Virus record (IMG/VR): IMGVR_UViG_3300047678_000846
Coordinates: 1-27,520 of that record
Reading direction: 5' to 3' (one strand)
From: a virus
Length of the DNA stretch: 27,520 nt
The position numbers were made by a program, and so were the translations under genes. The first letter of the stretch is position 1. Every line of letters starts with the position of its first letter. The notes below the pieces were generated by a model. That model was not told the DNA's origin, did not search any database, and saw only the letters and a program-made list of their open reading frames with translations. Positions 9,901 through 19,236 of the stretch are shown one piece after another.

Positions 9901-10182
9901 TTCAGCCCAAAGCGCGTATTTCTCGAAGCACCTTTTTCGTTCCGCAACGCGGAAGGCCAGCTCGTGAACGGCACCATCGATCTCCTGATCGAGAGCGCTG
10001 CTGGCTGGGTCGTCATTGACCACAAAACGTTTCTCGGCCCGAGCACCGACTGGCCCGCTCGTGCTCTGTCGCACTCCGGCCAACTCGGAACCTATCGCGC
10101 TTCACAAAACGCTCTCGGACGTCAGCCGTGCGCATCATGGATTCACTTCGCGACCACTGGCGGGTTGGTGGAAGTTCAGTAA
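6979..10182 (+). CDS. addA: AddA-like UvrD/RecB-family helicase-nuclease
   Basis: A 1067-residue superfamily 1A helicase fused to a C-terminal nuclease. Motifs in order are Walker A in TTAGAGSGKTTEL (residues 8-20), the DEFQD box in LLVDEFQDTSPLQ (about 335), GDVKQAIYGFRGS (motif III, about 365), HGAKGLEWPVV (motif V, about 708) and LLYVAFTRSRD (motif VI, about 793). A RecB-type PD-(D/E)XK domain follows, with NGTIDLLIE, VVIDHKTF and a trailing GQLGTYRAS Gln (about 998-1037). The start is the ATG overlapping the addB stop; a slightly earlier in-frame ATG exists. The pair should unwind and resect DNA ends, either for recombination or to degrade foreign DNA. It is convergent with the HNH gene, with no clear terminator in the 112 bases between them. 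Confidence 0.88.
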   Translation: MSDIIQLTTAGAGSGKTTELTRIIEDAISTGECRPEAIIGTTFTNKAAEELVERVRRRLFAAGRVSDAQRLEESLLGTVHSICARLLGRFAFEAGISPEIVVLDEGDARVLLSAAIEEACPTQLVREMERLSTRLCQRDDKTGESFWKARVGDLTKAARENGIDPARLAAMADPSIAEIIQHLPPATNSPLDEQLAAALRTALGQMEGNGDTTAKSATAKNEFEQALRELGEGRMAWAQWWRVAKADFGKTSVAAAKPAQEIARHVEEHPALRSELAEFIRGIFTVAAEALVFYQSRKEERGWLDFADLEARTLALLAHPAVAGVISDEFDLLLVDEFQDTSPLQLALFLRLAELVRVRTAWVGDVKQAIYGFRGSDPELMNAAVALVRSRDGITPPLDMTYRARPELAQFFNAVFVPAFQRTLALPANEVTLQPSRPARAELPPPIERWLLSSGQNYANGNPKPLNNDQCAVAMAEGVRRLLAGGYSVEDKHSHELRPLRARDVAVLCRKNDVAAEIAGCLVTRGIAVTRKTPGLLATPEACLALACLRRLLDPGDSLAAAEIIALDGELTAEQWLEQRLAWLEDSAPERWGLDGTLAHPSLLALEKAREHLVLFTPQEALDTAMSAGGVFRAVTAWGPTEARAAQRRANLEVLRGLAVQYEERCGTAHRPATVAGLLLWYAKLKAESLDCIAADESADAVHVVTWHGAKGLEWPVVICAEIETEPRPRLWNQVLVVQESAVDPRAPLAARRLRFWPWPFGKQWNGVPLAANVENSAAGQRAARAAIEEELRLLYVAFTRSRDVLVLPFRHGKNAAALAPLNAAAWLTLPATADEVIDGSVGEFLSRARCVIPPEAFPAQQPEPQSRWFPPGAARTPKLPAAILPHAAPPLDGASVGECIEFQRRLPIRGRCDEKLLGNALHALLAFEFLHPDDRDRGAVAERLLRAHGTADFLDAADALAMASGFRTEVARRFSPKRVFLEAPFSFRNAEGQLVNGTIDLLIESAAGWVVIDHKTFLGPSTDWPARALSHSGQLGTYRASQNALGRQPCASWIHFATTGGLVEVQ

Positions 10183-10294: not shown

Positions 10295-10876
10295 CTAACC
10301 GAGAAAGTGCTCCCAGTCGCGGACGCCGTGGTGGTTGCGGATCTGCAAGCTTGCGGGCACCACGCGAGGGGCGACCGGTTGCTTGCGCAGGCGCAGGCCG
10401 GCTTCGTGAGGCAGGCGATTGGCTTTCCGCGAGTTCACTTCGCGGTGGGCGAGCACGCAGTTGTCCCACGACGTCTTGCCGCCGCGGGAGCGCGGGACGA
10501 CATGGTCGATGTTGCCTTCTTTCGGCGTGAGTTTGCGGCCGGTGTATTGGCACACGCCACCGTCGCGCTCCCAAATCCCACGCGCGCCGAAACGCGGGCG
10601 GCGCATCGGGACTTTGGCGTAGTTGGCGGCGACGATGACGGTCGGCACGCGCACGGGACCGCGTGGGGTGTTCACGGCGTTGTCGTGCTCGCGGACGGGC
10701 AGCTTGAGCCAGTCGTCCCAGCGCACGGGCGAAATGTATTCGTCGCTTTGAACGTCGAGCGCGGTCGCAGCGCCGCTGGCGATCATGCAGAACGCCTCGG
10801 CGGGCGTCTTCACATGGATCGCCTGCCAGTGCCGGTTCAGCACTAGCACGGTCGATTTGTTGAGGATGTCGTTCAT
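10295..10876 (-). CDS. HNH endonuclease (McrA-like class)
   Basis: A 193-residue HNH nuclease. The betabeta-alpha-metal signature is visible as NIDHVVPRSRGGKTSWDN (residues 122-139: Asp124, His125, Asn139), followed by CVLAHREVNSRKANR, which supplies the distal His/Asn. An upstream VCQYTGR segment carries one Cys, but the paired CxxC zinc knuckle typical of many HNH proteins is reduced. The N-terminus (ILNKSTVLVLNRHWQAIHV) is characteristic of a widespread group of bacterial HNH proteins of unknown target. It is the last gene of the minus-strand cargo series, downstream of rtcB and separated from it by a strong hairpin. Whether it cuts DNA or RNA cannot be read from sequence; proximity to an RNA ligase makes either possible. 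Confidence 0.85.
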   Translation of the reverse strand: MNDILNKSTVLVLNRHWQAIHVKTPAEAFCMIASGAATALDVQSDEYISPVRWDDWLKLPVREHDNAVNTPRGPVRVPTVIVAANYAKVPMRRPRFGARGIWERDGGVCQYTGRKLTPKEGNIDHVVPRSRGGKTSWDNCVLAHREVNSRKANRLPHEAGLRLRKQPVAPRVVPASLQIRNHHGVRDWEHFLG

Positions 10877-10939: not shown

Positions 10940-12322
10940 TCAGTCTTCGGCGCGGTCGCCGGCCGGACACATCTTCACGAGCTTCGGATCGAACTGGCCG
11001 AGGACTTCGACCAGATCGGTCTGCGCGGCCATGACGGCGTGGATGTCCTTATAGACACCCGGCACTTCATCGAGGCCGGCGGAGAGCAGTTCGACGCCGC
11101 GTTCGGCGAGCAGCTTCTTGGTCGCGCTCCAGGTGAAGGACTGCATCGCCTTGGTGCGGCTCATCACGCGGCCTGCGCCGTGCGACGCGCTGTTGAGCGA
11201 CTCGGGCGAACCCTTGCCGCGCACGACGTAGCCGGGCGACGCCATCGAGCCGGGAATGATCCCGAGCACGCCGGCGCCCGCGGGCGTTGCGCCTTTGCGA
11301 TGCACGATCACCTCGCGTCCGCCGTGGGTTTCTTTCCACGCGAAATTGTGGTGATTCTCGATGTCGAGCACTCGGTGCGCGCCGAGCTTGCGCCCGATGT
11401 GGTGGTGGATGAGCGCGTGATTCGCAGCGGCGTAGCGGCCCATCAAGTTCATCGCGGCCCAGTATTCCTGGCCGTCGGCTTCGTCGAGCGAGAGCCACGC
11501 GAGGTGCTTGAGTTCCTTCGGCAAGTGCTCGTGGCGAGCCATCGCGCGCTTGCTGTAGTAGTCGCACACCTGCGCGCCGGTGCCGCGCGAACCCGAGTGC
11601 GTGAGCAGTGCGAGGTATTCGCCCGGCTCAAGGCCAAGATCGTTTTGTCCGACGGTGAACGCGCCGAATTCGACGAAATGGTTACCGGAGCCGCTCGTGC
11701 CGAGCTGTGACCACGCCTTGTCGCGCAGTCGGTTCGTCACCGGCGAAACGCTCCAGTCTTCGTCCATCACGTCATGTTCGCGCCGTTCCTTGAACGAGCA
11801 ACCCATGCCAAAGCGCGTCTCGCTCTCAATGAGGTTTGCGAGGCGATCCCGCTGACCGGCGAGGGTGTTCGCCTTGCGATCATAGACGCTCAGCTTCATG
11901 CGGCACGCGATGTCCACGCCCACGGCGTAAGGGATCACCGCGTTCTCCGTCGCGAGCACGCCGCCGATCGGCAGGCCGTAACCGACGTGCGCATCCGGCA
12001 TGAGCGCGCCCGCCACCGCGACCGGCAGCGCACACGCATTGGCCATCTGCTTCACCGCCTCAGCTTCGAGCCCCTCGCCCCACTGACGCCACGGCGCGAG
12101 TTCCGCGCGCGGCGTGAAAGCAGGGCGATAGATCGCGCGAGCGAGCGGCGCGCGCAGCTCATCGGCGAAAAACGCCGGCGGATTGGCAACGATGTTGAAG
12201 ATCTCGGCCTCCAGCAACGCACCGTCCTGGCCCTGCGCGATGAAGTTCTGGATGAACTCGTGCGCGAGCTTGATCGGCTCGCCGACAGGCACGCCGAGGC
12301 GAATGAGGTCTTTGGTGCTCAT
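10940..12322 (-). CDS. rtcB: RtcB-family tRNA/RNA-splicing ligase
   Basis: A 460-residue GTP- and Mn-dependent RNA ligase that joins 2',3'-cyclic-phosphate (or 3'-phosphate) ends to 5'-OH ends, the break chemistry left by many anticodon nucleases. Family motifs are PDAHVGYGLPIGGV, GVDIACRM (canonical GVDIGCGM with changes), GTSGSGNHFVEF, LTHSGSRGTG, ENHHNFAW, VIVHRKGATPA, GIIPGSMASPGY and SASHGAGRVMSR. These supply the metal-binding Asp/Cys/His set and the guanylylated His region. The start chosen is MSTKDLIRLGVP: the frame is open 99 bases further, but that stretch is low-quality and contains a repeat shared with another locus. It lies between the receiver-TIR gene (upstream) and the HNH gene. 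No PrfH or archease gene is in the window. The ACRM variant suggests a paralogue outside the housekeeping RtcB group. Confidence 0.93.
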   Translation of the reverse strand: MSTKDLIRLGVPVGEPIKLAHEFIQNFIAQGQDGALLEAEIFNIVANPPAFFADELRAPLARAIYRPAFTPRAELAPWRQWGEGLEAEAVKQMANACALPVAVAGALMPDAHVGYGLPIGGVLATENAVIPYAVGVDIACRMKLSVYDRKANTLAGQRDRLANLIESETRFGMGCSFKERREHDVMDEDWSVSPVTNRLRDKAWSQLGTSGSGNHFVEFGAFTVGQNDLGLEPGEYLALLTHSGSRGTGAQVCDYYSKRAMARHEHLPKELKHLAWLSLDEADGQEYWAAMNLMGRYAAANHALIHHHIGRKLGAHRVLDIENHHNFAWKETHGGREVIVHRKGATPAGAGVLGIIPGSMASPGYVVRGKGSPESLNSASHGAGRVMSRTKAMQSFTWSATKKLLAERGVELLSAGLDEVPGVYKDIHAVMAAQTDLVEVLGQFDPKLVKMCPAGDRAED

Positions 12323-12379
12323 TGGTTGTGTTTGTTTGAAAATGTGGTCTGCCGCGTGTGGGCGCAATGCGGCTGCGGA

Positions 12380-12404
12380 GCAGCGGTGTTTGTTCTTCTT
12401 GTCG
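12380..12404 (-). repeat. Dispersed 25-bp element, copy in the rtcB leader
   Basis: On the minus strand this 25-mer begins CGACAAGAAG and ends with AACAAACACCGCTGC, 57 bases upstream of the rtcB start. A second copy, identical at 24 of 25 positions, lies on the plus strand at 19281-19305. In one frame both copies read DKKNKHRC and the single difference is silent (AAG/AAA). Confidence 0.7.
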
Positions 12405-12439
12405 CAAAAACCTCCCCGCAAATCGTCGAGAATCGACGA

Positions 12440-13348
12440 CTACCTCCTCCGTGAATGACCTTTCACGTTACGACCTCCCTTGGTTCGCGTCCCTTTTATG
12501 CCCCAGATCAACAGGCTCAGTGCTTCCTCATACGAAGAGGCCTTTGAAAAAGTCACCGCGCTAAACTCGCGAAGGAATAATGGCATTTCCACTCGCTTCA
12601 CGAATGATGGCAACAGCACGGGAATGACCGGCATCTTTCGCCGCACAAACTGGCTGATCGCAGCCTTCTGCTCCAAGTCCTCCCATGGTCCCACACCATC
12701 TTTTCCGATGAAAACTGCAGCTGCCTTCGTCTTCGGAATCGCGCGGGAGATCTCGTCTTGAAAAGAACGCCCGGGCGGTATCGCCCATCTGTCGAACCAT
12801 GGCCTTAATCCGGATCTTTCCAAGTCGCGAGCAATCCTCTCCACTGCATCTTTTTCGAGGCTGTTGTGTGCCAAAAAAACATCGAATTCGTATTCATCCC
12901 CCGCTTGCGTTTCGGATGGTCGCCCACAAAGGTCCGATTCGATGCGCCGCCAAGGAGAATCAGACTTCCGACCTAGATAGTAGAGTTTTGGAAACCAATT
13001 CGAGACCAACACGGCACGGCGATCAGCTTTTTGGCGCATCTTCGGATCATCTGGAAAAAAGCTGATGACGTATGCCTTGGCCTCAGGGCGCGCAGAGTGC
13101 GCAAACGCCAAGAGATCAATCCCATCAACTAGCTTCTTTGACGGGCATCTCGCAGCCTCATCAAAAAACACGTCGGTCAGTATTGCGTCCAGCCGCAGTC
13201 GGGTGTCCGCAATGAGAGACGCGGCTTGCATCAAACTCTCAGCCGCAAGGCAAACCAACATTGTTTCCTCATGGACCTTGTTTACGATGAATCGACAGCA
13301 TGAGGCGTCATCATCAACAACGAGAATTGTCCTTCTTGTTTGCTTCAT
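12440..13348 (-). CDS. Response-regulator receiver fused to a TIR domain
   Basis: A 302-residue fusion. Residues about 8-125 form a receiver (REC) domain: acidic pocket ILVVDDDAS (Asp12-14), candidate phosphoacceptor Asp59 in AILTDVFFDE, and FPK (Lys121) as the distal lysine. Residues about 153-250 form a bacterial TIR domain: YEFDVFLAHNSLEKDAV, GLRPWFDRWAIPPGRSFQ, then AAAVFIGKDGVGPWEDLEQ, where Glu226 (or Glu223) is the candidate NADase glutamate, and MPVIPVLLPS. A basic tail follows. The histidine kinase gene lies 11 bases upstream on the same strand and an SD-like AAAGG precedes the start, so kinase and regulator form one unit. Known TIR effectors of this class cleave NAD or make signalling nucleotides; control by phosphorylation is inferred from architecture. 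Base composition is visibly more AT-rich than the flanking genes. Confidence 0.85.
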   Translation of the reverse strand: MKQTRRTILVVDDDASCCRFIVNKVHEETMLVCLAAESLMQAASLIADTRLRLDAILTDVFFDEAARCPSKKLVDGIDLLAFAHSARPEAKAYVISFFPDDPKMRQKADRRAVLVSNWFPKLYYLGRKSDSPWRRIESDLCGRPSETQAGDEYEFDVFLAHNSLEKDAVERIARDLERSGLRPWFDRWAIPPGRSFQDEISRAIPKTKAAAVFIGKDGVGPWEDLEQKAAISQFVRRKMPVIPVLLPSFVKRVEMPLFLREFSAVTFSKASSYEEALSLLIWGIKGTRTKGGRNVKGHSRRR

Positions 13349-13359
13349 GCATTGACCTT

Positions 13360-14139
13360 TCAGATGACACGCTTCCTCGGGACGTCGAGACGAAAAGCGG
13401 CGGGGCGTGTAGAGAGTAGCGTGAGCGTCCCATTAAAATATTGCTCTACCAAAGATCTTGCGACTGACAGCCCGACACCCGTTCGTCCCAGGCGACTTGT
13501 CACTCCAATCTTAAAAATTGTTTCCGATTCTTTGATCTCCGGAGAGATGCCTGGACCGGAGTCCGAGACGATTATTTCAACGCTTCGTGCCGAGCTACGA
13601 CGGGTTTTGGAGAATACACTAATTGTGCGGTCAATCTGGCGTGGATTACCTGTGATGGCGTCTATCGAATTGAGGATCAGATTCGCGATAACTTGGGAAA
13701 AGACCTCCTCCGGTCCAACTAGCTCTAAGTCAGCTGCTACGTTGATTGTGAAATTGATGCGGCGGCTCTCAAAAACCGGCGCGAAGTTGAGTGCGATCCG
13801 TTTCACCGCTTGGTGAATTTTGAAGCGCGTTTCGCGTGGTTCCCGATCAAATTGAAGCGATCGGATGCTGGCAAGCATTTCGGAGATTCTGGCTGCATCG
13901 TGAACGATTGATTCCGCAGCTTCGAGCAATCGGCTTCTAGAGCTTAGCCCTTCTAGTTTCTTGATCTGTGAAGCGAGATCGGATGTGCTCGCACAAAGAT
14001 GAAACGCACGATGCCCCAAATCATGTGCAACGAGATTCATCAACTCAATCACCGTGGAGCGTCGCGCAACGTCCCGAAGCAAGTCGTCGTTTGATGAAGG
14101 TCGTGGCATAAAAGAGCCGTTAGCACCGGTTTGCCTCAT
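13360..14139 (-). CDS. Soluble histidine kinase without sensor domain
   Basis: A 259-residue histidine kinase made of little more than its catalytic core. The dimerisation/phosphoacceptor helix contains NLVAHDLGHRAF with His39 as the likely phosphorylated residue. The HATPase domain shows the N box (NLILNSIDA, Asn157), G1 box (DSGPGI, Asp193) and G2 box (RTGVGLSVA, 219-227). Only about 30 residues precede the phosphoacceptor helix and no membrane segment or PAS/GAF domain is present, so the signal must arrive through a partner or directly through the core. A second in-frame ATG (MPRPSSND) lies 30 bases in and could be the true start. It is cotranscribed with the receiver-TIR gene. Composition is more AT-rich than neighbours, suggesting the pair arrived together. 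Confidence 0.88.
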   Translation of the reverse strand: MRQTGANGSFMPRPSSNDDLLRDVARRSTVIELMNLVAHDLGHRAFHLCASTSDLASQIKKLEGLSSRSRLLEAAESIVHDAARISEMLASIRSLQFDREPRETRFKIHQAVKRIALNFAPVFESRRINFTINVAADLELVGPEEVFSQVIANLILNSIDAITGNPRQIDRTISVFSKTRRSSARSVEIIVSDSGPGISPEIKESETIFKIGVTSRLGRTGVGLSVARSLVEQYFNGTLTLLSTRPAAFRLDVPRKRVI

Positions 14140-14234: not shown

Positions 14235-15011
14235 TCAAGCTGCGAGCGCGTAGCGGCGGAAGAAGCCGTTCAGCTCGTCCACATCGCCGACGGCATCGTC
14301 CGGCTCGTTCAGCGCTTCGAGCCTCGGTAGTTCGGCCTCGATGAAACGCGAGAGCGCTTCGACCGGCGGCGCAACGGCCAGTTCGTCGCCGGCTTGCTTG
14401 CGCGCGACGAGTTCGTTGAGCGCGAGGCGCACGTCGGCTTCGTCGAGCACGTTCTCCACGAGTTGCGCGAAGAGCATCGGCACCTGACCGAGCTGGCGCT
14501 CGATCCAGCGGCACGCAAGCAGCGGACGGAAGACGTAGAGATACTTCTTCAGACTCACTTCCTCGCGGCCACGCAGGTAGTCGCGCCAGTTGCCGAAGGC
14601 CATGTGCAGGTAGTGCGCGAAGCAGCGCCGCGGCGAATAGAACTCCGTCGCGAGCGCGCCGAACTCGGCGGCGAAGACCGGATCGTGGCGATACACGACC
14701 GGCGACTTCAGCCATTCGAGCAGCGGCGGGTTGCTCTTGCGGAGCAGTCGAAGCGCCTTGCGCAGCTCCCAGCCGCTCACGTCGAGATCATGGGCGATCG
14801 GCTGTTCGATGACGTCGCGCCGGTCCTCGACCGAGAGATACCAGTCGCGCCGGTGGACGTAGAGGAAGCGCACGTCGTAGTCGCTGTCGCGCGAGGCAAA
14901 GCCCCACGCCCGGCTGCCGCTCTCGCACGCGAAAAGCACGCGCACGTTCCGCTCGGCCTCGACCTGAGCGAGCGCGTTGCGGACGCGCTGGAAGACTTCA
15001 TTCCCGTGCAT
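14235..15011 (-). CDS. COG3541/YcgL-type predicted nucleotidyltransferase
   Basis: A 258-residue polymerase-beta-superfamily nucleotidyltransferase. The signature is clear: ACESGSRAWGFASRDSDYDVRFLYV, with the GSRAWG loop (residues 32-37) and the metal-binding pair Asp44 and Asp46. The rest is a helical domain with FGNWRDYLRG and KKYLYVFRPLLACRWIE, typical of this group. Substrate is unknown; members of this fold add nucleotides to RNA ends, small molecules or proteins. It begins 77 bases after the CCA end of the last tRNA and has a perfect Shine-Dalgarno, so it is probably cotranscribed with the array. Several array tRNAs lack an encoded CCA, which makes an RNA 3'-end role attractive, but that is inference: the fold is shared with antitoxins and antibiotic-modifying enzymes. 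Confidence 0.82.
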   Translation of the reverse strand: MHGNEVFQRVRNALAQVEAERNVRVLFACESGSRAWGFASRDSDYDVRFLYVHRRDWYLSVEDRRDVIEQPIAHDLDVSGWELRKALRLLRKSNPPLLEWLKSPVVYRHDPVFAAEFGALATEFYSPRRCFAHYLHMAFGNWRDYLRGREEVSLKKYLYVFRPLLACRWIERQLGQVPMLFAQLVENVLDEADVRLALNELVARKQAGDELAVAPPVEALSRFIEAELPRLEALNEPDDAVGDVDELNGFFRRYALAA

Positions 15012-15087: not shown

Positions 15088-15162
15088 TGGTGAACCCGTT
15101 GGGACTTGCACCCACCTGAGCCGCTTAAAAGGCGGCGGCTTCGCTATCAAAGCTTCGGGTTC
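15088..15162 (-). tRNA. tRNA-Lys(UUU)
   Basis: 75 nt, 7-bp acceptor GAACCCG/CGGGTTC, anticodon loop CTTTTAA, CCA encoded. T-loop TGCAAGT (G55), D-loop TGATAGCG with AGC and no GG. Position 8 is A and position 14 is T, the reverse of the usual U8-A14. Confidence 0.88.
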
Positions 15163-15166
15163 TAAA

Positions 15167-15243
15167 TGGTAGTCGCGGCTGGAGTCGAACCAGCACTGGC
15201 GGCGCTCTCGACGCCGTGCCTCTTCCAGTTGGGCTACGCGACC
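15167..15243 (-). tRNA. tRNA-Leu(GAG), short variable loop, canonical elbow
   Basis: 77 nt, CCA encoded. Anticodon stem CGGCG/CGCCG with loop TCGAGAG gives anticodon GAG but C at position 33. D-loop keeps GG (AACTGGAAGA) and T-loop keeps TTC, one of only three canonical elbows in the array. The variable loop is 5 nt, although bacterial tRNA-Leu normally has a long arm. Confidence 0.8.
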
Positions 15244-15255
15244 GTTGTTGTGAAA

Positions 15256-15331
15256 TGGCACCCGTGGCCGGACTCGCACCGGCTAGGACTCGCTTGAAAG
15301 GCGAGGCGCTCGGCTCTTTGCATTCACGGGT
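15256..15331 (-). tRNA. tRNA-Glu(UUC)
   Basis: 76 nt, acceptor ACCCGTG/CACGGGT, discriminator G, CCA encoded, anticodon loop CTTTCAA. T-loop TGCGAGT, D-loop AAAGAGCCGA with AGC, no GG; D-stem only three pairs. Confidence 0.87.
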
Positions 15332-15340
15332 GTTTTGAAA

Positions 15341-15433
15341 TGGCGGAACGCGGAGGGCATGCTCCCCATCACGCGAAATGCGCGACGATCTCTTTAGCAA
15401 AGAGCCCCGGCTCGCTTGTCCGGTTCACGTTCC
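15341..15433 (-). tRNA. tRNA-Ser(GCU)
   Basis: 93 nt with a long variable arm, discriminator G, CCA encoded, anticodon loop TTGCTAA (pair 27-43 is G-A). T-loop AGCATGC (G55), D-loop ACAAGCGAG with AGC. Confidence 0.86.
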
Positions 15434-15435
15434 AA

Positions 15436-15511
15436 TGGTGCCCACGGCGAGAGTTGCACTCGCACTGTCCGAGGTTTGAAGTCGGTGCCTCTGCTATTGG
15501 GCTACGTGGGC
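15436..15511 (-). tRNA. tRNA-Leu(CAA), short variable loop
   Basis: 76 nt, acceptor GCCCACG/CGTGGGC, CCA encoded, anticodon loop TTCAAAC with a C-C mismatch closing the stem. T-loop TGCAACT, D-loop AATAGCAGA. Short variable loop (ACAGT), unusual for Leu. The stop codon of the protein gene 15494-16390 falls inside its D-arm. Confidence 0.82.
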
Positions 15512-16390
15512 GTTGAGATGAAGTGCTCCCGGCCGGATTCGCACCGGCACTGAGCGGGGTTTAAGTCCGCTGCCTCTTCGTTGGGCTACGGGAGCGAAAG
15601 TGGTCCCGGCGGCAGGATTTGCACCCGCACTGGCTCCGTTCTGAGCGGAGTGCCTCTTCTGTTGGGCTACGCCGGGAAAAATGAAAATGATTCGCCGGAA
15701 GCTGAGCCGGATGCGCCGCACGGACGTAGCCGGATCAACCTCCGACGGATTGCACATCACCTCGCGCAGTTCGCGCAGCGCGATTCTGTCGAGCAGATCC
15801 TGGCGTTGTGGATCGCGCCAGCGCCAGCGATTGGAATTGCCGCAGAGCCAATCGAGGCGGTGCATCGCATTGCGATGCCGGAGCCAGCCTTCGATCTCAG
15901 CGATGCGCTGCTCGACGGCCGGATCGCAGATGTAGGTTTCCGTGATCCAGTTCGGCTCGACCTTTAGCTCGAAGACATACGGGCTGGCGAAGATGAGCGC
16001 GTCGTGCCAGACGCGGAAGTGGCACCGCTTCTCTTGGCGGAAGTAGGGTTTCCATTCCTCCGGCAAGCGGCGCCAATTCCACTCGCCGACGCTGAGTTCG
16101 TGGAGCGGCTGTTCGATTTCCACGTAGCGACGACGACGGCCACGCCCGCGCCTTTTGCGAAAGTCCGGTGAGTTGCGGAGTTTCACGGTGCCGATGAATT
16201 CGAGCAGTGCGAGAAGCACGTCTTTGTCGGCGCGCTTTTCCGCCTTGGCCGTGAGGACGTGAAAGCGACGCCAGCCGCGCTGAATGGGTTCGTCGAGCGG
16301 AACGCGGATGTGGCGTCGCCGCCACAGATCGCGCAGTTCGCTTCCGAGTCTGAGGAGATGTTTGTCGAAGTAGTCTTGTGCGTTGAGCAT
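15494..16390 (-). CDS. Basic protein of unknown function; reading frame runs through tRNA genes
   Basis: I do not recognise this family. The frame is 298 codons, starting 23 bases after the CCA end of tRNA-Arg(UCG). Residues 1 to about 237 look like a real protein: helical, Arg- and Trp-rich, with a basic patch RKRRGRGRRRRYVEIEQ near residue 80 and motifs WNWRRLPEEWKPYFRQEK and FRVWHDALIFASPYVFELK, suggesting nucleic-acid binding. The final 60 codons are the translated sequences of tRNA-Leu(CAG), tRNA-Leu(UAA) and part of tRNA-Leu(CAA); no stop occurs earlier. Either an original stop was lost when tRNAs moved in, or the message lacks a stop after RNase P cuts the downstream tRNA. It sits inside the array on the same strand. 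Confidence 0.65.
   Translation of the reverse strand: MLNAQDYFDKHLLRLGSELRDLWRRRHIRVPLDEPIQRGWRRFHVLTAKAEKRADKDVLLALLEFIGTVKLRNSPDFRKRRGRGRRRRYVEIEQPLHELSVGEWNWRRLPEEWKPYFRQEKRCHFRVWHDALIFASPYVFELKVEPNWITETYICDPAVEQRIAEIEGWLRHRNAMHRLDWLCGNSNRWRWRDPQRQDLLDRIALRELREVMCNPSEVDPATSVRRIRLSFRRIIFIFPGVAQQKRHSAQNGASAGANPAAGTTFAPVAQRRGSGLKPRSVPVRIRPGALHLNAHVAQ
15524..15595 (-). tRNA. tRNA-Leu(UAA), short variable loop, no encoded CCA
   Basis: 72 nt plus CTT where CCA is expected. Acceptor GCTCCCG/CGGGAGC, anticodon loop CTTAAAC with an A-C mismatch at 31-39. T-loop TGCGAAT, D-loop AACGAAGA (no GG, no AGC). Overlapped by the reading frame of the protein gene 15494-16390. Confidence 0.82.
15601..15676 (-). 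tRNA. tRNA-Leu(CAG), short variable loop
   Basis: 76 nt, acceptor CCCGGCG/CGCCGGG, CCA encoded, perfect anticodon stem CTCCG/CGGAG with loop CTCAGAA. T-loop TGCAAAT, D-loop AACAGAAGA. The body closely resembles the other three Leu genes, so they form one local family. Overlapped by the 3' part of the protein gene. Confidence 0.85.
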
Positions 16391-16413
16391 GGTGTGATTG
16401 GTGGTGGTTGAAA

Positions 16414-16489
16414 TGGTGCTCCCGGCAGGAATTTCGCCTGCAACCTCCGCGTTCGAAGCGCGGTGCTCTATACATTGAGCTACGGGAGC
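16414..16489 (-). tRNA. tRNA-Arg(UCG)
   Basis: 76 nt, acceptor GCTCCCG/CGGGAGC, CCA encoded, anticodon stem CCGCG/CGCGG, loop CTTCGAA. T-loop CGAAATT is the most deviant of the array (G55 but A56); D-loop AATGTATA has neither GG nor AGC. Confidence 0.86.
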
Positions 16490-16499
16490 GTTGTTGAAA

Positions 16500-16574
16500 T
16501 GGTGCGCCGGGGCGGTTCTGCCCCGCCTGCCTCCGCAATGTCGGTGCGGCGATCTGCTAATGATCTACCGGCGC
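16500..16574 (-). tRNA. tRNA-Val(GAC)
   Basis: 75 nt, acceptor GCGCCGG/CCGGCGC, CCA encoded, anticodon stem CCGCA/TGCGG, loop CCGACAT with C33. T-loop GGCAGAA, D-loop ATTAGCA. Confidence 0.8.
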
Positions 16575-16580
16575 GTGAAT

Positions 16581-16599
16581 GCCGCGCGATGTGCGCGGC
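16581..16599. repeat. Perfect hairpin in a tRNA spacer
   Basis: Seven-base inverted repeat gccgcgc/gcgcggc around a 5-base loop, in the 31-base spacer between tRNA-Val(GAC) and tRNA-Gln(UUG). No U-run follows; possibly a processing signal. Confidence 0.5.
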
Positions 16600-16605
16600 G
16601 ATGAG

Positions 16606-16681
16606 TGGCTGCCCCGGATGGATTTGCACCATCAACCTCCCGATTCAAAGTCGGGCGCTCTGCTGGTTGAGCTACAGGGCT
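16606..16681 (-). tRNA. tRNA-Gln(UUG)
   Basis: 76 nt, discriminator G, CCA encoded, anticodon stem CCCGA/TCGGG, loop CTTTGAA. T-loop TGCAAAT, D-loop AACCAGCA. The 1-72 pair is A-A; the sister Gln(CUG) gene has T-A there. Confidence 0.86.
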
Positions 16682-16689
16682 AGAAGGAG

Positions 16690-16761
16690 AGCCGGCTACC
16701 GGTGCTGCCCCGGTCTGATCTCGTTTACAGGACGAGTGCATGGCTGCTCTGCCAAGCCGGC
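16690..16761 (-). tRNA. tRNA-Thr(UGU), no encoded CCA
   Basis: 72 nt, acceptor GCCGGCT/AGCCGGC, followed by CTC instead of CCA. Anticodon stem CTCGT/ACGAG, loop CCTGTAA with C33. T-loop GGCAGCA, D-loop contains AGCAGCC. Confidence 0.78.
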
Positions 16762-16767
16762 ATAAAG

Positions 16768-16858
16768 TGGCGGAAGCCGGAGGTCATGCTCCCCATTCTG
16801 CGTAGCAGAACGATCCGCTTTCGAGGCGGTCCCGGCGCGCTTGTCCGGTTCAGCTTCC
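16768..16858 (-). tRNA. tRNA-Ser(CGA)
   Basis: 91 nt with a long variable arm (TTCTGC/GCAGAA), discriminator G, CCA encoded, anticodon loop CTCGAAA. T-loop AGCATGA, D-loop ACAAGCGCG. Closely related to the Ser(GCU) gene. Confidence 0.86.
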
Positions 16859-16868
16859 ATCTTTGAAT

Positions 16869-16942
16869 TGGTGAGTCGCCACGGTGCTGCCCCGTGCTCC
16901 GCGGTTTAAGAGACCGCTGCATCGCTGCAATGCTTGCGACCC
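16869..16942 (-). tRNA. tRNA-Lys(CUU)
   Basis: 74 nt, acceptor GGGTCGC/GCGACTC, CCA encoded, anticodon stem GCGGT/ACCGC, loop CTCTTAA. T-loop GGCAGCA, D-loop TGCAGCG. A8/T14 as in the Lys(UUU) gene. Confidence 0.87.
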
Positions 16943-16946
16943 AAAG

Positions 16947-17035
16947 CGGAAGTCAGTGGACATGCTCCACAAGCTGCGATTGCAGCTTCGTCCGGCTTCC
17001 AACCGGCGGCGGCGCGCTCGTCCGTTTTGACTTCC
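16947..17035 (-). tRNA. tRNA-Ser(GGA), no encoded CCA
   Basis: 89 nt with long variable arm (AAGCTGC/GCAGCTT), discriminator G followed by CTT in place of CCA. Anticodon loop TTGGAAG. T-loop AGCATGT, D-loop ACGAGCGCG. Confidence 0.83.
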
Positions 17036-17040
17036 AAAAG

Positions 17041-17116
17041 TGGCTGCCCCGGATGGATTCGCGCCATCAACCTCCCGGGTCAGAGCCGGGCGCTCTTGCT
17101 GTTGAGCTACAGGGCA
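17041..17116 (-). tRNA. tRNA-Gln(CUG)
   Basis: 76 nt, acceptor TGCCCTG/CGGGGCA, discriminator G, CCA encoded, anticodon stem CCCGG/CCGGG, loop CTCTGAC. T-loop CGCGAAT, D-loop AACAGCAA. Near-duplicate of the Gln(UUG) gene. Confidence 0.87.
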
Positions 17117-17121
17117 AAACG

Positions 17122-17193
17122 ATCCGCCAACCGGAGTTGCACCGGTCTCTCGCCGATACCAGCGGCGTGCGTCGCTACCAACGCTTTGGCGGA
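17122..17193 (-). tRNA. tRNA-Thr(GGU), no encoded CCA
   Basis: 72 nt, acceptor TCCGCCA/TGGCGGA, no CCA. Anticodon stem CGCCG/CGGCG, loop CTGGTAT. T-loop TGCAACT, D-loop TGGTAGCG with A8/T14. Confidence 0.84.
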
Positions 17194-17201
17194 ATTGGAA
17201 A

Positions 17202-17276
17202 TGGTCGGGCACCTCGGTGCTGCCCCGAGTGTCTCGCCGATCCGAACGGCGCGGATTGCTGTCTTCCTCGTGCCCG
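17202..17276 (-). tRNA. tRNA-Pro(CGG)
   Basis: 75 nt, acceptor CGGGCAC/GTGCCCG, CCA encoded, anticodon stem CGCCG/CGGCG, loop TTCGGAT. T-loop GGCAGCA, D-loop with GACAGCAA. G at position 8. Confidence 0.85.
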
Positions 17277-17282
17277 ATGAAG

Positions 17283-17356
17283 TGGTGGAGCCACGGGGAA
17301 TCGCACCCCGATCTACGCAATGCCATTGCGTCGTCCTGCTGTTGGACGATGGCCCC
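17283..17356 (-). tRNA. tRNA-Ala(GGC)
   Basis: 74 nt, acceptor GGGGCCA/TGGCTCC with a G-T at 3-70, the alanine identity pair, CCA encoded. Anticodon stem ACGCA/TGCGT, loop ATGGCAT. T-loop TGCGATT, D-loop AACAGCA. Confidence 0.88.
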
Positions 17357-17360
17357 GAAA

Positions 17361-17437
17361 TGGAGCGCGCGCCCGGACTTGCACCGGGTAAGAGCGGGTT
17401 TGCAAGCCGCCGCCTCGACGACTTCGGCATCGCGCGC
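17361..17437 (-). tRNA. tRNA-Cys(GCA)
   Basis: 77 nt, acceptor GCGCGCG/CGCGCGC, discriminator U73 as expected for cysteine, CCA encoded. Anticodon loop TTGCAAA with a C-C mismatch closing the stem. T-loop TGCAAGT, D-loop GAAGTCGTCGA with neither GG nor AGC. Confidence 0.82.
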
Positions 17438-17446
17438 TTTTGGAAA

Positions 17447-17521
17447 TGGGGAGGCCGACGGGTGCTGCCCCCGCTCGGCGATCTTCACAGGATCGAATGC
17501 TGGCTGTTACATCACGGCCTC
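17447..17521 (-). tRNA. tRNA-His(GUG)
   Basis: 75 nt, acceptor GAGGCCG/CGGCCTC, discriminator C73, preceded by an encoded G (position -1, base 17522), both histidine identity features. CCA encoded. Anticodon stem CGATC/GATCG, loop CTGTGAA. T-loop GGCAGCA, D-loop AACAGCC. Confidence 0.88.
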
Positions 17522-17533
17522 CGTTTGAAAGGG

Positions 17534-17607
17534 ATCCTCCGGCCGGCGCTGCCCCGGCATGGTCTTCTTTACGAGAGGAGTGCATTGCTGGCCTCTGCCA
17601 CGGAGGA
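17534..17607 (-). tRNA. tRNA-Thr(CGU), no encoded CCA
   Basis: 74 nt, acceptor TCCTCCG/CGGAGGA, followed by CCC rather than CCA. Anticodon loop CTCGTAA, stem with one C-A mismatch. T-loop GGCAGCG, D-loop GAGGCCAGCAA. Confidence 0.8.
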
Positions 17608-17615
17608 ATCTGAAA

Positions 17616-17692
17616 TGGTGCTCCCGCGAGGACTTGCACCTCGAGCTTCCGCCTTCGCAGAGCGGCGTGCAGAACTCTTACACTTCGGGAGC
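17616..17692 (-). tRNA. tRNA-Arg(GCG)
   Basis: 77 nt, acceptor GCTCCCG/CGGGAGC, CCA encoded, anticodon stem CCGCT/GGCGG, loop CTGCGAA. T-loop TGCAAGT, D-loop TAAGAGTTCT. GCG is rare in bacteria, which usually read CGU/CGC with ACG modified to inosine. Confidence 0.84.
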
Positions 17693-17698
17693 TAAAAA

Positions 17699-17773
17699 TG
17701 GTGCGCCATGCCGGTGCTGCCCCGGCGCCCGCGGTTTGGAAGACCGCCGTGCTTGCTGTTACACCAATGGCGC
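17699..17773 (-). tRNA. tRNA-Gly(UCC)
   Basis: 75 nt, acceptor GCGCCAT/ATGGCGC, CCA encoded, anticodon stem GCGGT/ACCGC, loop CTTCCAA. T-loop GGCAGCA, D-loop with AACAGCAAG. Confidence 0.87.
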
Positions 17774-17782
17774 TTTTGAAAA

Positions 17783-17857
17783 TGGTGGCTGCGTCCGGTA
17801 TCGCGCCGGACTCTCCTCGTCTTCAGCGAGGCGCTAATCTATCTCAGCTACGCAGCC
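17783..17857 (-). tRNA. tRNA-Phe(GAA)
   Basis: 75 nt, acceptor GGCTGCG/CGCAGCC, CCA encoded, anticodon stem CCTCG/CGAGG, loop CTGAAGA. T-loop CGCGATA, D-loop GAGATAGATT (no GG). Confidence 0.87.
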
Positions 17858-17859
17858 AG

Positions 17860-17933
17860 TGGTCCCTCCGCGCGGTATTGCGCCGCGGTCTCTCGCTTAT
17901 CGGGCGAGGGCTCTGCTTTTGAGCTACGGAGGA
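17860..17933 (-). tRNA. tRNA-Ile(GAU)
   Basis: 74 nt, acceptor TCCTCCG/CGGAGGG, CCA encoded and only 2 bases from the next gene. Anticodon stem CTCGC/GCGAG, loop CCGATAA with C33. T-loop CGCAATA, D-loop AAAAGCA. Confidence 0.83.
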
Positions 17934-17942
17934 ATTGAAGAA

Positions 17943-18016
17943 TGGTCGCCCGACGAGGTAACGCTCCTCGGTCTGCCGGGTGTGGGCCGGCTGCTCTCCT
18001 TTTGAGCTATCGGGCG
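17943..18016 (-). tRNA. tRNA-Val(CAC)
   Basis: 74 nt, acceptor CGCCCGA/TCGGGCG, CCA encoded, anticodon stem GCCGG/CCGGC, loop CCCACAC with C33. T-loop AGCGTTA; D-loop AAAAGGA keeps GG despite G55. Confidence 0.82.
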
Positions 18017-18024
18017 AATGAAAG

Positions 18025-18098
18025 TGGCACCCGCACCCGGTAATGCTCCGGGGTTTCCTGGTTGAGAACCAAGCGTGCTGCTATTGCACCATGCGGGC
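18025..18098 (-). tRNA. tRNA-Glu(CUC)
   Basis: 74 nt, acceptor GCCCGCA/TGCGGGT, discriminator G, CCA encoded, anticodon stem CTTGG/CCAGG, loop TTCTCAA. T-loop AGCATTA, D-loop AATAGCA. Confidence 0.87.
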
Positions 18099-18103
18099 GT
18101 AAG

Positions 18104-18178
18104 TGTCCCTGGCGAGAGTCGCACTCGCATCTGATCCTTTAGGAGAGGATCGCTCTAAGTCTATTGAGCTACAGGGAC
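18104..18178 (-). tRNA. tRNA-Arg(CCU), no encoded CCA
   Basis: 75 nt, acceptor GTCCCTG/CAGGGAC, followed by CTT. Anticodon stem ATCCT/AGGAT, loop CTCCTAA. T-loop TGCGACT, D-loop AATAGACTTA. Confidence 0.86.
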
Positions 18179-18188
18179 GTGAGAAAAG

Positions 18189-18273
18189 CGGAGCGCCAAG
18201 GACTCGAACCTTGGACACCATTGCTGGTGCGACTTTTTTCAAGACAGCGTCCTCGGCCAGCCGGACGCGCTCC
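18189..18273 (-). tRNA. tRNA-Ser(UGA), canonical elbow, no encoded CCA
   Basis: 85 nt with a long variable arm, acceptor GGAGCGC/GCGCTCC, discriminator G followed by CTT. Anticodon loop CTTGAAA; stem with a G-A mismatch. D-loop contains CTGG and T-loop is TTCGAGT, one of three canonical elbows. Confidence 0.83.
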
Positions 18274-18282
18274 GTTGTGAAA

Positions 18283-18357
18283 TGGCTCCTCCCCTTGGCA
18301 TCGCACCAAGCTCACACCGCTTAACAGGCGGGCCGCACACTCTGTGCGTTGAGAGGA
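18283..18357 (-). tRNA. tRNA-Asn(GUU), compact D-arm
   Basis: 75 nt, acceptor TCCTCTC/GGGAGGA, discriminator G, CCA encoded. Anticodon loop CTGTTAA. The D-arm is a five-pair stem CGCAC/GTGCG with a 5-nt loop AGAGT, so no room for G18G19. T-loop TGCGATG. Confidence 0.84.
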
Positions 18358-18359
18358 AT

Positions 18360-18434
18360 TGCTCCCGGCAGGAATTGCACCTGCGTCGTTCCGTTTAGAA
18401 GGCGGATGCCTGTGGTCTGCTCGGCCACGGGAGC
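18360..18434 (-). tRNA. tRNA-Arg(UCU), no encoded CCA
   Basis: 75 nt, acceptor GCTCCCG/CGGGAGC, followed by ATT; only 2 bases separate it from the next tRNA. Anticodon loop CTTCTAA with a C-A at 31-39. T-loop TGCAATT, D-loop GAGCAGACCACA. Confidence 0.83.
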
Positions 18435-18444
18435 GTTGATGAAA

Positions 18445-18519
18445 TGGTCGCGCGCCTCGGTGCTGCCCCGAGTGTCTCCTCGGCCCAAGCGAGGCGGATT
18501 GCTGTCTTCCTCGCGCGCG
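18445..18519 (-). tRNA. tRNA-Pro(UGG)
   Basis: 75 nt, acceptor CGCGCGC/GCGCGCG, CCA encoded, anticodon stem CCTCG/CGAGG, loop CTTGGGC. T-loop GGCAGCA, D-loop GACAGCAA. D-arm and T-arm are identical to the Pro(CGG) gene. Confidence 0.86.
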
Positions 18520-18541
18520 CCACGATTCGTGTCGTGTGAAA

Positions 18542-18618
18542 TGGCGGCCTGTGCGGGCATTGCTCCCGCGACCTTCCGCTCGACAGGCGGCTGCTCTTCA
18601 TCGCTGAGCTAACAGGCC
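18542..18618 (-). tRNA. tRNA-Asp(GUC)
   Basis: 77 nt, acceptor GGCCTGT/ACAGGCC, discriminator G as expected for Asp, CCA encoded. Anticodon loop CTGTCGA. T-loop AGCAATG, D-loop AGCGATGAA. Confidence 0.87.
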
Positions 18619-18623
18619 AGAAA

Positions 18624-18708
18624 TGGTGCGGCGTCCGGGTAATGCTCCCGACCGGTCGATGACTCCGGTTTTACAGACCGGCTCGCGTCTTTAGCGAACT
18701 ACCGCCGC
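18624..18708 (-). tRNA. tRNA-Tyr(GUA)
   Basis: 85 nt with a long variable arm as in bacterial tRNA-Tyr, CCA encoded, anticodon stem CCGGT/ACCGG, loop CTGTAAA. T-loop AGCATTA; D-loop TAAAGAC without GG. Pair 7-66 is G-A. Confidence 0.86.
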
Positions 18709-18715
18709 ATCAAGT

Positions 18716-18787
18716 TGGTTGCGGGACGTGGAGTTGCACCACGATGAAGAAGCTTATGAGACTTCTCGGGTTCTCAACCTTCCCGCA
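18716..18787 (-). tRNA. tRNA-Met(CAU), truncated D-arm
   Basis: 72 nt, acceptor TGCGGGA/TCCCGCA, CCA encoded, anticodon stem GAAGT/GCTTC, loop CTCATAA. The D-arm is reduced to GGTT/AACC with a 3-nt loop. T-loop TGCAACT. It could be elongator Met or, if lysidine-modified, Ile(CAU). Confidence 0.82.
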
Positions 18788-18794
18788 ATTGAAA

Positions 18795-18869
18795 TGGTGG
18801 ACCGCCACGGCTTTGCACCGTGCTCTCCCGCTTGCGAGGCGAGTGACCTCCTGAATGATCGAGCGGCCC
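18795..18869 (-). tRNA. tRNA-Ala(CGC)
   Basis: 75 nt, acceptor GGGCCGC/GCGGTCC with G3-T70, the alanine identity pair, CCA encoded. Anticodon stem CTCGC/GCGGG, loop CTCGCAA. T-loop TGCAAAG; D-loop ATTCAGGA retains GG. Confidence 0.86.
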
Positions 18870-18880
18870 GTTTTGAAAAT

Positions 18881-18956
18881 TGGTCGCAGGGGCGGGAATC
18901 GAACCCGCTCATTTTCGGCTTATGAGGCCGGCGCCGTCCCATCTGGCTCCCCTGCA
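18881..18956 (-). tRNA. tRNA-Met(CAU), canonical elbow
   Basis: 76 nt, acceptor TGCAGGG/CCCTGCG with a T-G first pair, CCA encoded, anticodon loop CTCATAA. D-loop contains ATGGGA and T-loop is TTCGATT, both canonical. The weak first pair could hint at an initiator, but the three G-C pairs of the initiator anticodon stem are absent. Confidence 0.84.
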
Positions 18957-19069
18957 AAATGCACGAAGGTTCGCAGGGCGGACGCAACCACGCATCGTCA
19001 GCGCCCGCCCCGCGGTTTCCCCCTTGCAATCGAATCCGCGTACTCTCGTTGCTGCGCGCGGATGAAAAA
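18957..19069. other. 113-base spacer in the array without a foldable tRNA
   Basis: No cloverleaf fits here. Two stems are visible: gggcgg (18976-18981) with ccgccc (19005-19010), and cgcgg (19011-19015) with ccgcg (19036-19040). This may be a decayed tRNA gene or a separate structured spacer. Confidence 0.5.
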
Positions 19070-19143
19070 TGGCACGGCGTCTCGGTGCTGCCCCGAGCCC
19101 GCGGAGTTTTGGAGACTCTGCTGCGCAAGCTGGCGCCCGCCGT
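19070..19143 (-). tRNA. tRNA-Trp(CCA)
   Basis: 74 nt, acceptor ACGGCGG/ACGCCGT (G7-A66 mismatch), discriminator G73 as expected for Trp, CCA encoded. Anticodon loop CTCCAAA. T-loop GGCAGCA; D-arm is a GCGC/GCGC stem with loop CAGCTT. Confidence 0.83.
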
Positions 19144-19161
19144 GTTGTTGAATTTGAAAAT

Positions 19162-19236
19162 TGGAGCGGTCAGCCGGACTTGCACCGGCATCCCCTGAAT
19201 GGCGTTCAGGAATCTTGGCTCTTGGACGATGACCGC
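19162..19236 (-). tRNA. tRNA-Gly(GCC)
   Basis: 75 nt, acceptor GCGGTCA/TGACCGC, discriminator U73 as usual for bacterial Gly, CCA encoded. Anticodon stem CCTGA/TCAGG, loop ACGCCAT with C33. T-loop TGCAAGT, D-loop AAGAGCCAA. It is the first gene of the array in transcription order. Confidence 0.83.

Follow-up and report, generated by a model that had tools for sequence, protein, structure and literature searches.

Is a tRNA array whose genes almost all lack uridine 55 a set of decaying copies, or do its members fold by another elbow? The contact of G18 with pseudouridine 55, which joins the D-loop to the T-loop and helps to give the molecule its L shape, is regarded as near-universal in transfer RNA (tRNA). 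The question is raised by IMG/VR virus record IMGVR_UViG_3300047678_000846, analyzed here as a stretch of 27,520 bases (the window), which carries a dense tRNA array. A first-pass annotation made from the sequence alone had described the elbow of these tRNAs as rewired by joint change of D-loop and T-loop. This was borne out by covariation of base 18 with base 55.

A tRNA array with G55

Structural fitting and hand reading placed 39 tRNA genes for all 20 amino acids at window positions 15091-19236, on the minus strand. A script that fitted all four stems located 33 of the 39, and the other six were placed by hand. ARAGORN reported 19 tRNAs in the window, one of them (on the plus strand) false, and the Rfam tRNA model reported 20; both programs undercount owing to the deviant loops. 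No tRNA could be fitted in any of six Markov-shuffled copies of the window, and the pattern recurs in related phages, where G55 was present in 27 of 27 tRNAs (L022/L023) and in 30 of 32 (L317). The array pattern is far beyond chance.

G55 was found in 36 of the 39 genes, and both counts agree with the first-pass annotation. U55 was restricted to three window genes (Met 18884-18956, Leu-GAG 15170-15243 and Ser-UGA 18188-18273), which read TTC in the T-loop and, as noted at first, keep GG in the D-loop. A18-G55 replaced the canonical G18-U55 in 31 of the 36 G55 genes. The D-loop motif AGC, initially put at about 25 genes, is indeed the commonest form (about 22 genes), but the real constant is AG (31/36) and the third base is variable. 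Val-CAC and Ala-CGC had been listed as exceptions; their D-loops, AAAAGGA and ATTCAGGA, read A18-G19-G20 and so fit. That Arg-UCG, Cys and a few others fit neither state was correct, and the true exceptions also include Asp, Leu-UAA and a Met gene with a short D-arm (18716-18787). The description of positions 54-56 as NGC holds for G55 in all 36 genes, but not for the third letter in Arg-UCG, which has A56 instead of C56 (T-loop CGAAATT).

Covariation of base 18 with base 55

Related DNA was gathered from viral and bacterial collections by means of terminase relatives, RtcB relatives and a T-arm pair pattern. This pattern specifies nothing in the D-loop, and because the loci it fetched were picked by the T-arm alone, the D-loop result is not built in. 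The structural fit yielded 1,331 distinct tRNAs, a number that rose to 1,574 with the addition of further loci. In D-loops of 7 nucleotides (nt), positions 18 and 19 are fixed without a choice of register. Among tRNAs with such loops, A18/G55 occurred 269 times, A18/U55 once, G18/G55 14 times and G18/U55 123 times. Base 18 was A in 269 of 289 G55 tRNAs (93%) and G in 123 of 126 U55 tRNAs (98%). Base 19 was G in 275 of 289 and 124 of 126, respectively, and base 20 was variable in both groups. Base 56 stays C across the switch from G18-U55 to A18-G55. The mutual information between D-loop and T-loop positions reached 0.70 bits for 18-55 but did not exceed 0.14 bits for any other pair.

Close relatives are not the cause of this result, because one sequence per cluster (more than 20 differences apart) still gave counts of 115, 1, 8 and 77 for the same four combinations (p ~5e-45). 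Lineage is not the cause either, since 40 loci that mix both kinds of tRNA gave 94, 1, 3 and 87. A tree of 1,104 tRNAs, crude and with a D-loop register assigned by a simple rule, placed 203 of the 229 changes inferred at 55 on branches where 18 changes too; the contrast with all other columns, for which at most 20% of the changes coincided, is nonetheless large.

The AGC motif is accordingly best written A18-G19-N20, with a variable N20 at which C is frequent but unconserved. After AG, G55 tRNAs other than tRNA-Arg had C in 48%, U in 33%, A in 12% and G in 8%, a variability that resembles position 20 of canonical tRNAs. The first-pass annotation had instead proposed antiparallel GC/GC pairing, with G18-C56 and C19-G55, and the prevalence of AGC in the window speaks for it. 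Such pairing requires C after G, which only about half of the G55 tRNAs have; the mutual information of 20-55 was 0.02 bits, and changes at 56 accompany changes at 19, not 18. By covariation the contacts are 18-55 and 19-56, and we give the GC/GC pairing hardly any credence.

Covariation of base 19 with base 56

Independent evidence comes from tRNAs where 56 is not C, in which base 18 still follows base 55 and base 19 mostly becomes the Watson-Crick partner of 56. With U56, the D-loop read G18-A19 (if U55) in 94% of 16 tRNAs. With A56 most D-loops, though not all, read G18-U19 or A18-U19, and the same holds for G56 with G18-C19 or A18-C19. The predicted 18-19 dinucleotide was exact in 48 of the 70 tRNAs with 56 other than C, compared with a permutation mean of 24 and a maximum of 38. 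Both tertiary contacts of the canonical register, 18-55 and 19-56, show covariation; this is the correlated change between 18/19 and 55/56 in related arrays that the first-pass annotation had suggested looking for. As read from the letters, the 19-56 contact is either kept as G19-C56, as in the canonical elbow, or swapped, mostly for another Watson-Crick pair.

The replacements of G19-C56 concentrate in tRNA-Arg, which accounts for 36 of the 70 tRNAs and often keeps A20. A separate observation concerns positions 54-58: G55 tRNAs with G-G, A-U, C-A or C-C there mostly carry A60, and A-U is frequent in Ile-GAU.

Structural reading of the elbow

In the T-loop motif, residue 2 (tRNA position 55) contacts a base inserted between residues 4 and 5 (tRNA position 18), and residue 3 (position 56) pairs with 19; the exposed 19-56 pair serves as a stacking surface for RNase P, the ribosome and T-boxes (PMC4810234). 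T-loops of structured RNAs receive an inserted A via a trans sugar-edge/Hoogsteen pair with G at position 2, for which the flavin mononucleotide (FMN) riboswitch is a structural example (PMC11363276). The array tRNAs show the signature of such an A-receptor T-loop, in that G at position 2 covaries with an A partner. The FMN-riboswitch hairpins GGGUGCAAUUCCC and GGUGCAAUUCC, which were matched by the T-arm pattern, have the same letters as array T-arms.

By this comparison, the base inserted into the T-loop would be A18, facing G55, where canonical tRNAs place G18 against pseudouridine 55. The outer pair would still be G19-C56, available for stacking by the ribosome, RNase P and the L1 stalk, and the T-loop would have changed from the tRNA type (G receptor, U at position 2) to the riboswitch type (A receptor, G at position 2). 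The elbow with A18-G55 is thus very probably an alternative, mutually compensated contact, the geometry of which we infer from sequence. It shares with the canonical elbow the positions and register, the kept G19-C56 pair, the cloverleaf and the identity elements, and differs in that 18-55 is A-G instead of G-U and 19-56 is sometimes A-U, U-A or C-G. With the FMN riboswitch it shares a U-G-N-R-A loop closed by G-C pairs and the A partner for G at position 2; unlike the riboswitch motif, it lies inside a tRNA, as its elbow. An A18-G55 elbow cannot carry pseudouridine 55 or Gm18 and should therefore need neither TruB nor TrmH, and the array tRNAs would take the normal L fold without either modification.

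No report of the A18/G55 T-loop swap was found in the literature searched. The Steinberg group reportedly performed in vivo selections of D/T-loop variants, and an A18-G55 pair may already have been described among the selected suppressor tRNAs.

Distribution in viruses and bacteria

At least three A18/G55 tRNAs were present in 79 groups of loci sharing no identical tRNA, 45 of them viral and 34 from bacterial assemblies; some of these groups may share one contig, so the independent elements are somewhat fewer. The bacterial loci belong mainly to Verrucomicrobiota and Planctomycetota. One Verrucomicrobiota genome has an array of 28 tRNAs, all with G55, within a contig of 5.96 Mb (L378), and the variant is therefore not confined to phage. 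The strict pattern matched 10 of 241 Verrucomicrobiota genomes and 8 of 119 Planctomycetota genomes, the latter including some non-tRNA matches. The T-arm pattern also matches FMN riboswitches in other phyla; its matches by themselves therefore cannot be counted as tRNAs, and tRNA loci were kept only after structural fit.

In the two array-bearing bacterial genomes checked, G001 and G109, the variant is confined to the arrays: outside them, 35 of 35 and 29 of 30 fits, respectively, had GG and TTC. A TruB-less host as the cause was ruled out, as TruB is encoded in 7 of 8 array-bearing genomes checked.

Mycobacterial arrays, the Anabaena trn operon and Planctomycetes clusters are likewise dense, near-complete tRNA sets on mobile or accessory DNA. 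The plasmid arrays of Mycolicibacterium and Curtobacterium differ in their canonical elbows and were rejected as members of the variant class, bar one Curtobacterium gene. This lone tRNA-Phe, at 17487 of plasmid pCPAA3 (L376), has both changes (D-loop ATGCAGTA, T-loop CGCAAGT).

Are the array tRNAs functional?

The identity elements match the anticodon, as in functional tRNAs. G3-U70 was present in 37 of 37 G55 tRNA-Ala, and the discriminator base was U73 in 39 of 39 tRNA-Cys, A73 in 35 of 35 tRNA-Lys and G73 in 28 of 28 tRNA-Asp. A20 was found in 79% of the Arg array tRNAs compared with 12% of other tRNAs, and tRNA-His in the window carries both G-1 and C73. The cloverleaf, with its paired stems, also appears to be under selection: of 18 stem pairs that differ between the window and L317, a near relative, 13 can still form, 6 of them via a double change. 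Because the identity elements survive, the array genes are not decaying pseudogenes. Taken as a whole, the data are best explained by a near-complete, selectively maintained tRNA set with a compensated alternative elbow, which we consider quite likely. Such tRNAs would be charged and serve in translation; with somewhat less assurance, we regard this use as probable.

The reading most at odds with a maintained set is that of degenerating genes, i.e. decayed, horizontally acquired copies without function. Planctomycetes tRNA clusters have been described as degenerate (PMC4807772), and the array tRNAs have lower Rfam scores and somewhat less conserved positions 54-58, U8 and U33. What decay does not account for is a directional covariation of two sites with many parallel switches, intact amino acid-specific identity elements, compensated stems, and the retention of all 20 amino acids in one array. 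Dozens of other viruses and bacteria share the two-letter swap, which gives these "degenerate" tRNAs the appearance of a second, coherent design. We consider decay very unlikely, and the genes had not been taken for random decay in the first-pass annotation either. The tRNAs could also be decoys or sponges that capture nucleases directed at tRNA, or other factors of the host: tRNA arrays are regarded as putative antidefence (PMC12803027), and the neighboring RtcB and RlaP suggest tRNA damage. A full amino acid set and synthetase identity elements would be needless for a decoy, and we judge this role unlikely.

Charged tRNAs with a task outside translation would be another possibility, as the tRNA-Gly of Staphylococcus petrasii has the same T-loop letters (U54 G55 C56). 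The cell-wall tRNA-Gly of Staphylococcus is a single, non-translational isotype, whereas the window array involves all 20 amino acids. The Staphylococcus tRNA-Gly has U18U19 or C18U19, not A18G19, and the window array lacks the corresponding combination of a U18U19-type D-loop with G55 in Gly only. We rate this explanation as improbable as decay, if not slightly more so.

Some observations weigh against a maintained set with an alternative elbow. About 5% of G55 tRNAs fit neither state (e.g. Cys, some Leu, Asp). Pairs other than U-A at 54-58 (GG, AU, CA, CC) make up 23% in the G55 class but 6% in the U55 class, and the G55 loop is therefore under looser constraint. In the DNA examined, RtcB or RlaP lies near a minority of arrays only. 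The arrays of the four cultured phages checked (CcrColossus, CcrRogue, DSS3_MAL1 and MD18) have only canonical elbows, and these phages were rejected as members of the variant class.

Gene neighborhood and probable host

The window encodes a gpA-type terminase, a lambda-type portal and an S49 protease. Its virus probably infects Verrucomicrobia, judging from RtcB and HNH matches (73-81%) to Verrucomicrobiota loci. The tRNA genes and the neighboring RlaP, RtcB and HNH genes are listed in Table 1.

Table 1. Genes of the tRNA array and its neighbors (window coordinates; all on the minus strand)
Feature	Position	D-loop	T-loop	Remarks
tRNA-Gly GCC	19165..19236	A18 G19	TGC	
tRNA-Trp CCA	19073..19143	CAGC	GGCAGCA	hand reading
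tRNA-Met CAT	18884..18956	GG	TTC	canonical
tRNA-Ala CGC	18798..18869	ATTCAGGA	TGC	G3-U70
tRNA-Met (or Ile2) CAT	18716..18787	very short D-arm	TGC	exception
tRNA-Tyr GTA	18627..18708	AAAGA	AGCATTA	hand reading
tRNA-Asp GTC	18545..18618	AGCGATGAA	AGC	exception
tRNA-Pro TGG	18448..18519	A18 G19	GGCAGCA	
tRNA-Arg TCT	18360..18434	AGA	TGC	
tRNA-Asn GTT	18286..18357	AG	TGC	
tRNA-Ser TGA	18188..18273	GG	TTC	canonical
tRNA-Arg CCT	18104..18178	AGA	TGC	
tRNA-Glu CTC	18028..18098	AGC	AGCATTA	
tRNA-Val CAC	17946..18016	AAAAGGA (A18 G19 G20)	AGCGTTA	
tRNA-Ile GAT	17863..17933	AGC	CGC	
tRNA-Phe GAA	17786..17857	AGA	CGC	
tRNA-Gly TCC	17702..17773	AGC	GGCAGCA	
tRNA-Arg GCG	17619..17692	AGT	TGC	
tRNA-Thr CGT	17534..17607	AGC	GGC	
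tRNA-His GTG	17450..17521	AGC	GGCAGCA	G-1 and C73
tRNA-Cys GCA	17364..17437	AAGTCGTCG	TGC	exception
tRNA-Ala GGC	17286..17356	AGC	TGC	G3-U70
tRNA-Pro CGG	17205..17276	AGC	GGCAGCA	
tRNA-Thr GGT	17122..17193	AGC	TGC	
tRNA-Gln CTG	17044..17116	AGC	CGC	
tRNA-Ser GGA	16947..17035	GAGC	AGCATGT	hand reading
tRNA-Lys CTT	16872..16942	AGC	GGCAGCA	
tRNA-Ser CGA	16771..16858	AAGC	AGCATGA	hand reading
tRNA-Thr TGT	16690..16761	AGC	GGCAGCA	
tRNA-Gln TTG	16609..16681	AGC	TGC	
tRNA-Val GAC	16503..16574	AGC	GGC	
tRNA-Arg TCG	16417..16489	AATGTATA	CGAAATT	G55 A56, candidate U19-A56
tRNA-Leu CAG	15604..15676	AGA	TGC	5-nt variable loop
tRNA-Leu TAA	15524..15595	AACGAAG	TGC	exception; 5-nt variable loop
tRNA-Leu CAA	15439..15511	AGC	TGC	5-nt variable loop
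tRNA-Ser GCT	15345..15432	AAGC	AGC	6-nt T-loop by hand
tRNA-Glu TTC	15259..15331	AGC	TGC	
tRNA-Leu GAG	15170..15243	GG	TTC	canonical; 5-nt variable loop
tRNA-Lys TTT	15091..15162	AGC	TGC	
RlaP, RNA-ligase-associated nucleotidyltransferase	14235..15011			PF10127
RtcB RNA ligase	10940..12421			PF01139; adjoins arrays in other phages and bacteria too
HNH endonuclease	10295..10876			

Among the pattern-fetched loci, HNH homologues were found in 26 of 80 array loci and RtcB in 12 of 80, compared with 0 of 108 loci without tRNA clusters for either gene. RtcB or RlaP adjoins tRNA genes in several lineages, in the manner of an RNA-repair island, at a minority of loci. In the sister phage represented by loci L022 and L319 (73% terminase and 66% RtcB identity), RtcB, RlaP and HNH all stand beside the array, and L379 has a TROVE protein and RtcB together with an array. 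A search of the viral contig collection with RlaP as query gave no match.

Between RtcB and RlaP, at 12440-14139, lie TIR-domain and histidine-kinase-like ATPase genes, neither of which was found in L317 by tblastn. On the plus strand, 4277-10182 encodes a PDDEXK nuclease and a UvrD/RecB-like helicase-nuclease, an AddB/AddA-like pair in a small phage; the alignment of L317 to the window continues without them. The tRNA array itself is interrupted at 15682-16410 by ~730 bp that hold most of an open reading frame (15494-16390) and are missing from L317.

A long variable arm is the norm for tRNA-Leu in bacteria. Genes for tRNA-Leu with 5-nt variable loops occur in the window at 15170-15243 and 15439-15676 and in the arrays of many loci; the variable loop was short in 35 of 63 G55 Leu genes and in 32 of 54 U55 Leu genes. 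In CcrColossus (L331), tRNAs assigned to Trp, Lys and Asn, by annotation or by reading, have long variable arms.

Possible role of the array

In phages, a role in tRNA repair has been ascribed to RtcB and RlaP (PMC7824862). Anabaena has an accessory trn operon that shares one stress-relieved repressor with rtcB (PMC10272220). As in the RtcB-RlaP repair modules, both proteins occur here together in a phage with tRNAs; unlike in those modules, they are tied to an altered-elbow array and an HNH gene, and this also in bacterial chromosomes. From these precedents, a spare tRNA set combined with repair enzymes would be the most likely role: the array may act as a replacement set, alongside RtcB and RlaP, when infection or conflict damages cellular tRNAs. 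This anti-damage role is plausible, but we stop short of calling it probable. More tentatively, and with considerable doubt, phages and mobile elements of Verrucomicrobiota and Planctomycetota might keep a full parallel tRNA set with a separate A18-G55 elbow code, independent of pseudouridine 55 and Gm18, that lets translation outlast effectors reading the normal elbow or its modifications.

The A18-G55 elbow would represent a natural double replacement of G18-pseudouridine 55 that has evolved repeatedly, leaves the outer face of the elbow intact and corresponds to the A-receptor T-loops known from riboswitches. The covariation provides direct evidence for the elbow contacts 18-55 and 19-56, which in cellular tRNAs is hidden by near-invariance. 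The deviant elbow also explains the misses of gene finders (ARAGORN, 19 of 39). So-called degenerate tRNA clusters become candidates for working spare tRNA sets, and the need for pseudouridine 55 becomes testable with natural tRNAs.

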